Assembly (NCBI GenBank): GCA_013811945.1
Contig: JACCUI010000189.1
Coordinates: 1-59,568 of the forward strand
DNA length: 59,568 bases
From: Pyrinomonadaceae bacterium
GTDB taxonomy: Bacteria > Acidobacteriota > Blastocatellia > Pyrinomonadales > Pyrinomonadaceae
Direction of reading: 5' to 3'
In this document: one piece after another, positions 38,320 through 43,574 of the stretch
Position numbering within the stretch: the stretch's first letter is position 1
Layout of the letters: each line of letters starts with the position of its first letter
Program-made: the position numbers and the translations under genes
The notes under the pieces: model-generated
Told to the model about the DNA's origin: nothing
Database searches by the model: none
What the model saw: only the letters and a program-made list of their open reading frames with translations

Positions 38320-38520
38320 CAGCGCCGGGGGCGCGGCAGAAGGTAACCAGGCGCAAACGCCGTAGCGGTGCAGCGCCTGGAACGACCTCCGAAAATGGTC
38401 CCAGCCTGAAAGGGTGCTGCCGCCCTTTTCAGGGCTGGTTTGATGTATTGGTCATGATCCAGGGGCGGCGCGCTAGGCGCGCTCGCCCCTGGCTACCCTC
38501 TGCCGCGCCTCCGGCGCTCG
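38320..38520. repeat. B-type nested inverted repeat, complete copy
   Basis: Outer arms 38320-38351 and 38488-38520 pair over about 32 bp with a few mismatches (GCGCCGGxGGCGCGGCAGA.. / ..TCTGCCGCGCCxCCGGCGC). Nested inside are CCTGAAAGGG-N7-CCCTTTTCAGG (about 38405-38434) and CCAGGGGCG-...-CGCCCCTGG (about 38459-38492). Decayed right-arm copies at 30490-30519 and 41595-41640. Confidence 0.8.
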
Positions 38521-40446: not shown

Positions 40447-40478
40447 AACGGCAACCGGAGGGGTTCTCGGTTGCCGTT
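40447..40478 (-). terminator. Intrinsic terminator of the secreted-protein gene
   Basis: AACGGCAACCG (40447-40457) and CGGTTGCCGTT (40468-40478) form a perfect 11-bp stem with 10-base loop. On the minus strand it is followed by TTTGGTTTTC, so it terminates transcription coming from 41032. A second stem, GTCAGGgGAGGGCGAG..CTCGCCTCCTGAC, lies just before it (about 40491-40542). Confidence 0.7.
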
Positions 40479-40558: not shown

Positions 40559-41032
40559 TCAGCGAATCATGGCTACGATCTCGACCGCTTCATAGCTGCT
40601 CCGGGCAAGCTCGCTTTTCGAAGAAATCGCTGCGAGTTGACCTTCGATGGCCCGCTCTTCACTAGACTTAGCCAACTGCCGACCGGTTCGTTCGCCGGTC
40701 GTCCAGACCTCGGAGAGGAAGTAGCGTTGACCGTAGCGATGAAATACCAGTTTCGCCTGCTTGGGGACGATGCGTGCCTCGATCGACTGGGCCAATCGGA
40801 TCGCTCTGTCATTCGAGTCCTGGCTGCTGATCAGCAGTGCGTCACTATTTGTTGTGAACGCTCGCACCGAGTACTCACCGGCCTTTAGCGACTTGCCACC
40901 AACGGCGAAATCGAACGGTATATCGGCAACCACTGAGCTGGATTGAGCGTGGGCAGAAACTAACGCCGCCATCAACGCTACCCCGGCTATGAGCATTAAC
41001 ATCGTGAGACCTTTTAGAATTTGCTTTTGCAT
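40559..41032 (-). CDS. Secreted protein, Acidobacteria-type, putative sigma-54 target
   Basis: 157 residues. Signal peptide (ILKGLTMLMLIAGVALMAALVSAHA), then VVADIPFDFAVGGKSLKAGEYSVRAF, a motif I associate with small exported proteins in Acidobacteria. The remainder is beta-rich with a helical C-terminus. Function unknown. AGGAGG lies 4 bases before the ATG at 41032. A sigma-54-like promoter (41169-41184) reads into it; a strong terminator follows it, so it is a single-gene unit. Confidence 0.85.
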   Translation of the reverse strand: MQKQILKGLTMLMLIAGVALMAALVSAHAQSSSVVADIPFDFAVGGKSLKAGEYSVRAFTTNSDALLISSQDSNDRAIRLAQSIEARIVPKQAKLVFHRYGQRYFLSEVWTTGERTGRQLAKSSEERAIEGQLAAISSKSELARSSYEAVEIVAMIR

Positions 41033-41168
41033 ACTTCCTCCTCGTGCCTTTCCTGGCGATGGTCGAAAGCGGCTCGACCTCAATCTATGTAGTAAGTGGG
41101 CGATCGTTTGATCAACTTCTTACCGGTGGCGGCTCAACCTCTTTTATCTCGGGAGCCGTGCTCTCTAT

Positions 41169-41184
41169 AGCTACTCACGTGCCA
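41169..41184 (-). promoter_or_regulatory. Sigma-54 (-24/-12) promoter-like site
   Basis: Minus-strand TGGCACGTGAGTAGCT matches TGGCACG-N4-TTGCW with one mismatch (A for the second T of the -12 element) and correct spacing of GG and GC. Predicted start near 41157, about 125 bases before the secreted-protein gene. Its proximity to a sigma-54 activator gene raises the odds. Confidence 0.55.
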
Positions 41185-41305
41185 CGCAAATTGGCGATTT
41201 GTGATTCAGAAGAGCGGGTGCAGTAAACCGCTGCCCCAGCGATAGTTAAGCGCGGTCGATCGAAAGTTCTTATTTTCAGTTAGGACTCTCTCAACACACA
41301 GGAAC

Positions 41306-41342
41306 CTATCTCATCGGATAGCGCACGTATCTGTTCGGATAG
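41306..41342. promoter_or_regulatory. Two tandem 16-bp dyads, candidate enhancer (UAS)
   Basis: CTATCTCATCGGATAG at 41306-41321 and GTATCTGTTCGGATAG at 41327-41342 are dyads with 5-bp arms and a 6-base centre (GATAG at both right ends), exactly 21 bp apart, that is two helical turns. They lie about 120-170 bases upstream of the sigma-54-like promoter, the usual place for activator binding. Confidence 0.5.
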
Positions 41343-41594
41343 AGTTGGGCTGGAAAGGGCGGGGTAAAACACGCCCTGCTCAAATTCGCAGGTCAGGAAG
41401 GGTGGTTTACCCCCGGCCGACTCCATCGCCGGGCAAGCGCGGTAAAGGCGGGGTCCCCGGCAGGGCAGCCCCGCTGGGGTGCCAGTCGACCTTCCTTATA
41501 GACCTGCGAGGCATTCCAACTTGAGAGTTTGCATCAAGCATGCGGATCATTTCCCGCATGCTGGTGCAGGCGATGCCCGCCTACGGCGTTTGGG

Positions 41595-41640
41595 CCTGGT
41601 TACCTCTTGCCGCGCCTAGGGGGTTATTCAGCGCTTGTTG
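41595..41640 (+). repeat. B-type element, decayed right-arm copy
   Basis: CCTGGTTACCTCTTGCCGCG, then CCTAGGGGGTTATTCAGCGC, aligns with 38488-38524 with scattered differences and a short insertion. The matching left arm is not evident here. Confidence 0.55.
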
Positions 41641-41699: not shown

Positions 41700-43574
41700 A
41701 TGAACCCACGACTCGCAGCTATCGCCGGAAGACTCAAAGGAGCCGTTTTCCCTATCACCGAAGCTCCGGTCGTTATTGGTCGGGAAACCGCGGCTAACCT
41801 CTGCATCGCAGACCCGTCCGTGTCACGACGTCATTCTCAGATCGAGAAAGCGGGTGGGCAGTTTGTGATAGCCGACCTTGAGAGTCTCAACGGCACGTTT
41901 ATCAATGACGTTCCCGTGAAGCGACGCCCACTTGCGCACGGAGATCGCGTTCGCATCGGCGACTCGCAGTTTCTCTTTCTGCTTCATGACGGTGAAGCGT
42001 CCCCGGCATCCAAATCGAGTGAGGTCCAGTTTGACGACCGTCAACTCAGCGGTTCAACCATCCAGGTCAAATTCAATGATGCGGTTTACTTAATGGCCCG
42101 GGACTTGAGCGCGCTGATGAAGGTCAGCACCACTGTCAACGCCATACGTGGCCTCGGAGAGTTGCAGAAGACTTTGCTCGAACTCCTCTTCGAAGTCGTA
42201 CCTGCCGAGCGCGGCGCCATTCTGCTAAGTCATGGCAACGGGTTGGAGGACGCTGCCGTGTTTGGTTTGGATCGGGCTCGCGGGCCTGATGAGGCAATCA
42301 AAGTTAGCCGCACGATCGCTCAAAAAGTGCTGCGGGAGAAGACCTCGCTTTTAATCAGCGATGCTCTGATGAATCAGGGCTTTGGCTCTGACAGTCTCAA
42401 CCCATCTCGTCCCAGCTCGCTCATGTGCGTGCCGCTTATCATGCTCGAGCGCCCGCTGGGCGTTATCTACCTCGACACGAATGCGGCGGACGTTCATTTC
42501 GACCAGGATCACCTGCAACTGGTCTCGGCTATCGCGGCCATCACAGCAGTTGCAATTGAAAACGCGCGCCACATCGAATGGCTTCAAAGTGAAAACGAAC
42601 GACTGCTGGCCGACGTCAATATCGAGCACAACATGGTTGGTGAAAGCCCGTCCATGAAACAGGTTTACCAGTTCATCTCGAAGGTTGCGCCTACGGATTC
42701 GACGGTGCTGATCTCAGGTGAAAGCGGAACTGGAAAAGAACTGGCGGCACGAGCTATTCATCTGAACAGCCAGCGCGCGGGGCTGCCGTTCATGGCTGTT
42801 AACTGTGCGGCGCTGGCGGAAACTCTGCTCGAGAGCGAACTCTTTGGCCACGAGAAAGGTGCGTTCACCGGCGCCACGGCCATGAAAAAGGGTCGCTTGG
42901 AAGTTGCGGACGGTGGCACGGTGTTTCTCGACGAGATTGGCGAACTCTCACCGGTGCTTCAGGTAAAGCTCCTGCGCGTGCTGCAGGAACGTGAATTCGA
43001 ACGTGTTGGCGGTACCCGGACGATCAAGGTGAACATCCGACTGGTAGCGGCCACAAACAAAGATCTGGAACAAGCCATCGCCGCCGGGACTTTTCGCCAG
43101 GATCTCTTCTACCGTCTCAATGTGGTGGAACTGGCAATGCCGCCCCTAAGACAGCGGCCGGAGGATATCTCGCTATTGGCAAACTATTTCGCTTCGAAGC
43201 ACGGCGAAAAATGTAACCGCAAAATTTTGGGGGTATCTCCTGAAGCGCAAGCTCGTCTGCTCAGTTACGAATGGCCCGGCAATGTTCGCGAGTTGGAAAA
43301 CGCAATTGAGCGCGCGGTGGTATTGGGTGCAACTGACCATATCCTCCCGGAAGACCTGCCCGAAGCCACTTTGGAAAGCGGGGCTGCGGCAACCACCGCC
43401 TCGGCGCCCAGATATCATGAGGCTGTTACCCAGACAAAGAAACAGATCATTCTGAGTGCCATGGACCAGGCCAAAGGTAGCTACACCGAAGCCGCCAGAC
43501 TTCTGGGTGTTCATCCCAACTATCTGCATCGATTGATCCGGAACTTGAACTTGCGCGAGCAGGTGAAGCAGTAG
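41700..43574 (+). CDS. Sigma-54-dependent activator: FHA-GAF-AAA+-Fis HTH
   Basis: 624 residues. FHA domain (1-100: [36 protein letters not shown]), GAF domain (about 130-305), AAA+ domain (about 315-545) with Walker A GESGTGKE, sigma-54-contacting GAFTGA, Walker [10 protein letters not shown], and a C-terminal Fis-type HTH ([21 protein letters not shown]). FHA implies control by phosphothreonine signalling rather than a receiver domain. The ATG at 41700 precedes the FHA; the 57-residue upstream extension is repeat-derived. Divergent from its likely target at 40559. Confidence 0.94.

Follow-up and report, generated by a model that had tools for sequence, protein, structure and literature searches.

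A conserved sigma-54 switch predicted between an FHA-GAF activator gene and a divergent secreted-protein gene in Acidobacteriota

In the window, by which we mean the whole 59,568-nt stretch of Pyrinomonadaceae (Acidobacteriota) DNA that was analysed, two neighbouring genes are transcribed divergently, one encoding a sigma-54 activator (bacterial enhancer-binding protein) with FHA, GAF, AAA+ and HTH domains and the other a small protein that is predicted to be exported. The DNA between them contains a sigma-54 type -24/-12 element, which reads into the secreted gene, and two enhancer dyads (Table 1). Both gene calls of the original prediction are right, as relatives have the two genes at full length and from identical starts, and the minus-strand promoter element with its single mismatch and the two dyads were found where that prediction had placed them.

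Table 1. Positions of the circuit components and adjoining features in the window
Feature	Position	Strand	Remarks
Intrinsic terminator of the secreted gene	40449-40476	-	CGGCAACC-loop-GGTTGCCG; C-rich loop
Secreted gene	40559-41032	-	157 aa; signal peptide MQKQILKGLTMLMLIAGVALMAALVSAHAQ; predicted exported
5' leader of the secreted-gene transcript	41033-41158	-	conserved in five close species
Sigma-54 -24/-12 element	41184-41169	-	TGGCACGTGAGTAGCT; reads into the secreted gene; one mismatch to TGGCACGNNNNTTGCW
Enhancer dyad 1 (promoter-proximal)	41306-41321		CTATCTCATCGGATAG; perfect dyad
Enhancer dyad 2 (distal)	41327-41342		GTATCTGTTCGGATAG; one mismatch
Dispersed-repeat stretch between enhancer and activator gene	41376-41625		outside the circuit; widens the gap
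Sigma-54 activator gene	41700-43574	+	624 aa; FHA-GAF-AAA+-HTH
FHA domain	41769-41960	+	PF00498, E 1e-18; typical phosphothreonine-pocket residues GR, SRRH, NG
GAF domain	42159-42557	+	domain match
AAA+ sigma-54 interaction domain	42633-43133	+	PF00158, E 2.3e-73; GESGTGKE (Walker A), GAFTGA loop
HTH_8 (Fis-type) DNA-binding domain	43440-43532	+	PF02954; holds the Tyr608 codon (43521-43523)

The match of the activator to HTH_8 is marginal, scoring 21.9 bits compared to a whole-protein cut-off of 22; the helix is conserved in relatives, and orthologous activators retain the full domain architecture. Among the NCBIfam equivalog matches listed for the protein, all of which fall under their curated cut-offs, NifA ranks best (430.3 bits, cut-off 528.85) and NorR third (379.9 bits, cut-off 476), indicating that the activator is neither NifA nor NorR. 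The assembly to which the window belongs contains 30 Pkinase matches, and no kinase gene adjoining the circuit is evident among its neighbours in the window; Ser/Thr-kinase input through the FHA domain would be plausible. We did not find rpoN in this assembly, which is 67% complete; the gene is present in 13 of the 16 genomes of the genus, including all six of high quality.

For the exported protein, a search of Pfam and NCBIfam returned no family. AlphaFold models most of the mature part with confidence, as mainly beta strands plus a helix close to the C-terminus, and fold searches of the PDB gave no convincing match with either Foldseek (best E 0.51) or VIA-align (best match an SH3 domain, Z 4.1, rmsd 3.3 over 48 residues). 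Ten residues are invariant in an alignment of 18 sequences. The terminator of the secreted gene occurs once in the genome and is found at the same place in seven genomes of the genus (six besides that of the window).

The -24/-12 element stands alone in the window in having no more than one mismatch to the consensus. Its -12 C lies at 41170, from which a transcription start (+1) at about 41158 can be inferred, 126 nt ahead of the ATG of the secreted gene (41032). With up to two mismatches allowed, the window contains 3 sites compared to 10.8 expected from shuffles, so that the promoter score on its own is weak evidence, in agreement with the original prediction, which had considered the hit unremarkable by score. 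The two dyads start exactly 21 bp apart, bearing out the spacing that had been claimed, and their centres precede the inferred +1 by approximately 155 and 176 bp. They are more distinctive than the promoter, the window having 2 such dyads compared to an average of 0.16 in its shuffles. Taken alone in the window, dyads and promoter prove little, and it is their conservation in relatives that makes this a convincing candidate site.

Two hairpins are possible in the 5' leader (GTAAG...CTTAC and GGTCGAG...TCGACC). The GC-rich stretch between enhancer and activator gene was considered as a structured RNA and rejected, since it is made of dispersed repeats; these short repeats occur at about 24 places in the genome, with one further match in the window at 38330-38379. 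An Rfam search of the window and 18 related loci gave no match.

To assess conservation we compared 119 genomes of the family, in which the secreted gene and the activator gene are repeatedly divergent neighbours, and read the DNA between both genes in 31-32 loci. Whether the dyads recur upstream of orthologues had been put forward as a way to refute the proposed circuit, and they do: a CTATC-N6-GATAG dyad is present in 28 of 31 orthologous intergenic regions and a good -24/-12 element (at least 10 of 12 matching positions) in 23 of 31, compared to means of 0.08 (maximum 2) and 0.32 (maximum 3), respectively, in composition-preserving shuffles of the same regions. No recognisable dyad was seen in three of these regions and no strong promoter in eight, and two genus members (L044 and L076) have kept a related activator without dyads. 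A spacing of 21 bp is found in 23 of the 33 dyad pairs of relatives. Among five close species, 41 of the 48 positions in dyads and promoter are invariant, compared to 121 of 297 in the remaining sequence ahead of the gene; the 5' leader is well conserved too, and the stretch that separates the dyads from the promoter far less. Paralogues of the secreted gene that lie away from the activator mostly have neither dyad nor promoter, dyads being found in 2 of 12. The comparison of genomes shows selection to have maintained the arrangement, which is no chance pattern.

Most relatives encode the full secreted protein as output of the switch, with several exceptions. In three genomes (G089, G100 and G026; loci L089, L096 and L083), only an ORF of 42-44 aa is left, consisting of the signal peptide and a short tail, with dyads and promoter in place and, in G089 and G100, the terminator as well. 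Between G089 and G100 this short ORF has a dN of 0.13 and a dS of 0.63 (dN/dS about 0.2), and its first 30 codons 0.04 and 0.42, suggesting that it is maintained as a protein. In G090 the secreted gene is broken and the module intact, and in G097 (two copies) and G118 (L039, L075 and L049) switches of the window type have dyads, promoter and terminator, with no secreted ORF between promoter and terminator. Paralogous activators of a second type, which carry Asn in the recognition helix (see below), lie in genus g29 (L059, L060, L181, L182 and L183) divergent to a sigma-54 promoter of an apparently non-coding transcript of approximately 150-190 nt, with the conserved blocks TCCCCACGCCGACAAGGT ... 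ATACCAGCAGAAGTTCCTGC ... terminator. Such cases could mean that the chief product of the switch is an RNA or a very short peptide, the exported protein being one version of a transcript in which the 3' end or the part encoding the signal peptide would be what matters. The dyads, promoter and terminator that outlast the long ORF, the purifying selection on the short ORF of G089 and G100, the terminator with its C-rich loop, of which each genome has a single copy, at the secreted gene, and the short g29 transcripts all point in this direction. We nevertheless regard it as unlikely, as most orthologues retain the full protein with its invariant residues, 3' UTR hairpins other than the terminator have little covariation support and Rfam offers no match. 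A conserved hairpin in the 3' UTR upstream of the terminator, recurrent by eye, is not claimed given its poor covariation support. An RNA or microprotein role may nonetheless be followed as a live lead, next to the exported protein as the output that we favour.

Since the dyads sit between both genes and many regulators control their own expression, they might also be an operator for the activator gene itself, the -24/-12 element being incidental. The distances in the orthologous regions argue otherwise: from the dyads to the activator start they vary from 32 to 357 bp, whereas from the dyads to the -24/-12 element they cluster around 130 bp in most cases and around 96 bp in a second group, which assigns the dyads to the secreted gene's sigma-54 promoter. 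Furthermore, dyads and promoter precede secreted genes that have no activator found alongside (L005, L022, L121, L132 and L163). Autoregulation as the sole function of the dyads is therefore very improbable, and it may exist alongside their main role at the secreted gene's promoter. We do not claim strict helical phasing between dyads and promoter, for which the distances give a weak signal (R 0.10-0.34 for periods of 10-11).

On a genome-wide scale, the dyad pattern occurs in the assembly of the window (3.98 Mb) at these two sites only. A composite pattern of dyad and -24/-12 element separated by 112-140 bp gave 28 matches in 23 of the 119 genomes, compared to a single match for the reversed control, and in the genome of the window only the present locus matches; gaps of 81-111 bp added 12 matches, with none for the reversed control. 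Most composite matches precede the same secreted family, and some precede other genes, such as one for an exported protein in each of G092 and G112. The original prediction had called the circuit dedicated. This holds for the assembly of the window, where the dyad is found only here, and not for G022, G091, G092 and G095, which have two or three composite sites each, so that the circuit looks dedicated here and like a small regulon elsewhere.

Beyond the family, a scan of 84,980 species yielded 43 loci with the paired dyad, 39 in Acidobacteriota (Pyrinomonadaceae, Blastocatellia, Bryobacterales, Terriglobia, gp1 and gp11), three labelled Nitrospirae and one in Treponema; an activator homologue is present at 22 of these loci and a member of the secreted family at 18. 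In Bryobacterales the dyad pair adjoins the activator; going downstream from the promoter, the first long gene to follow is transporter-permease-like. Among Bryobacterales and Terriglobia loci L122, L147, L148, L149 and L152, several have an ABC-type permease-like gene approximately 275-430 bp past the promoter that adjoins the activator. On MAG contigs labelled Nitrospirae (L129, L140 and L146), the paired dyad is accompanied by AGGCACTGAAATTGCT at approximately 120 bp, ahead of an exported protein.

A further link between activator and dyads comes from the recognition helix, which reads HPNYLHRL in activators of the window type and HPNNLHRL in the variant, paralogous type. Upstream of a -24/-12 element, the latter activators have dyads of the form CTATCA-N4-TGATAG, likewise about 21 bp apart, and the corresponding composite pattern matches 15 times in 13 genomes and not at all in the reversed control. 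The dyad class could be assigned for 51 activators, several of them from inspection of the upstream DNA: all 37 with Tyr608 have the window-type dyad, and all 14 with Asn have the variant. A tree for residue 608, built from the AAA+ domain with the HTH left out, requires four changes on the best topology, and its well-supported branches force only one; the match of Tyr or Asn to the dyad is exact, yet independent switches between both may be few. That some other regulator binds the dyads (CTATCYNNNNRGATAG), with the FHA-GAF activator acting elsewhere, is extremely unlikely, for although the genomes of the family are rich in AAA+ activators (12-80 first-look candidates each), the dyad type tracks the activator's own recognition-helix residue in 51 of 51 classified cases and the dyads follow the position of the activator gene.

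The observed anatomy of the locus, its conservation, the link between dyad and activator type and the uniqueness of the site in its assembly lead us to a self-contained sigma-54 circuit, very probably composed of the activator, the paired dyads, the -24/-12 promoter and the divergent secreted gene. The sigma-54 promoter features (GG at -24, GC at -12 and the right spacing) are present and conserved across orthologues. Going by what is known of this protein family, the activator would bind the paired dyads, where two HTH dimers would probably share one face of the helix given the distance of 21 bp, with Tyr608 of the recognition helix reading the base beside the CTATC half-site. Looping of the DNA would then carry the AAA+ ring to RNA polymerase-sigma-54 at the -24/-12 element approximately 130 bp off, where ATP hydrolysis would open the divergent gene's promoter. 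The product, a small, beta-rich exported protein, would come from a transcript that carries this gene alone and stops at the gene's terminator. Activity of the circuit is probably gated by a phosphothreonine signal through the FHA domain, by a ligand through the GAF domain, or by both. The conserved dyads and promoter, together with the link between dyad and activator, bear out the predicted sigma-54 circuit in its main parts.

Several known systems resemble parts of this circuit. FHA-containing sigma-54 enhancer-binding proteins of Myxococcus xanthus reportedly combine FHA, sigma-54 AAA+ and HTH domains, and an input from eukaryote-like Ser/Thr kinases is said to have been suggested for them. 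Like these proteins, the window activator couples an FHA domain to a sigma-54 AAA+ domain and an HTH; as far as their description goes, it is set apart from them by a GAF domain between FHA and AAA+, by having a conserved divergent target whose paired enhancer is defined, and by its Acidobacteriota host. With NifA and NorR, one-component GAF enhancer-binding proteins, it shares the order of GAF, AAA+ and Fis-type HTH. Activators of the NifA/NorR type use dyad enhancers upstream of -24/-12 promoters; the window activator differs by its additional N-terminal FHA domain and by a different dyad, and no nif or nor genes are among its neighbours in the window. The M. xanthus proteins were the subject of Jelsbak, Givskov and Kaiser 2005 (PNAS 102:3010), cited in PMC12288465. 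For Desulfovibrio vulgaris, sigma-54 activator regulons were derived by comparative genomics, with activator-specific motifs beside -24/-12 promoters that often adjoin the activator gene (PMC4641369); the kind of evidence is the same as ours, the motif and target family differ, and the main text of that study makes no mention of FHA. The ORF-less outputs in some relatives have a formal parallel in the quorum regulatory RNA of Vibrio fischeri, a sigma-54-driven small RNA (PMC10162802); unlike that RNA, the output in the window itself is a protein-coding mRNA.

Our literature search for studies on sigma-54 activators in Acidobacteriota found none, and the literature on FHA activators and Acidobacteria sigma-54 yielded precedents only outside the phylum. 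Little seems to have been published on sigma-54 control in Acidobacteriota. These bacteria are among the commonest in soil. The class of system is known, and the present circuit joins it as a new member together with its target and its well-supported DNA code. A wider reading, which we put forward tentatively and hold to be rather doubtful, is that of a phylum-wide family of FHA-sigma-54 switches whose code would be set by a single residue, Tyr or Asn at position 608, and whose output may be a small exported protein, a microprotein reduced to the signal peptide or a non-coding RNA, with function residing partly in the transcript.

Taken together, the locus provides a defined DNA code, an activator and a target, all of which can be tested in E. 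coli, and it ties an unnamed, often multicopy family of exported proteins to a signalling input. For Fis-type HTH domains, the pairing of Tyr or Asn with the dyad base offers a clean prediction of specificity, and the loss of the long ORF in several relatives that have kept the switch and the terminator raises the question of which purpose the switch serves. Experiments would be most worthwhile on the specificity residue and on the variable output.
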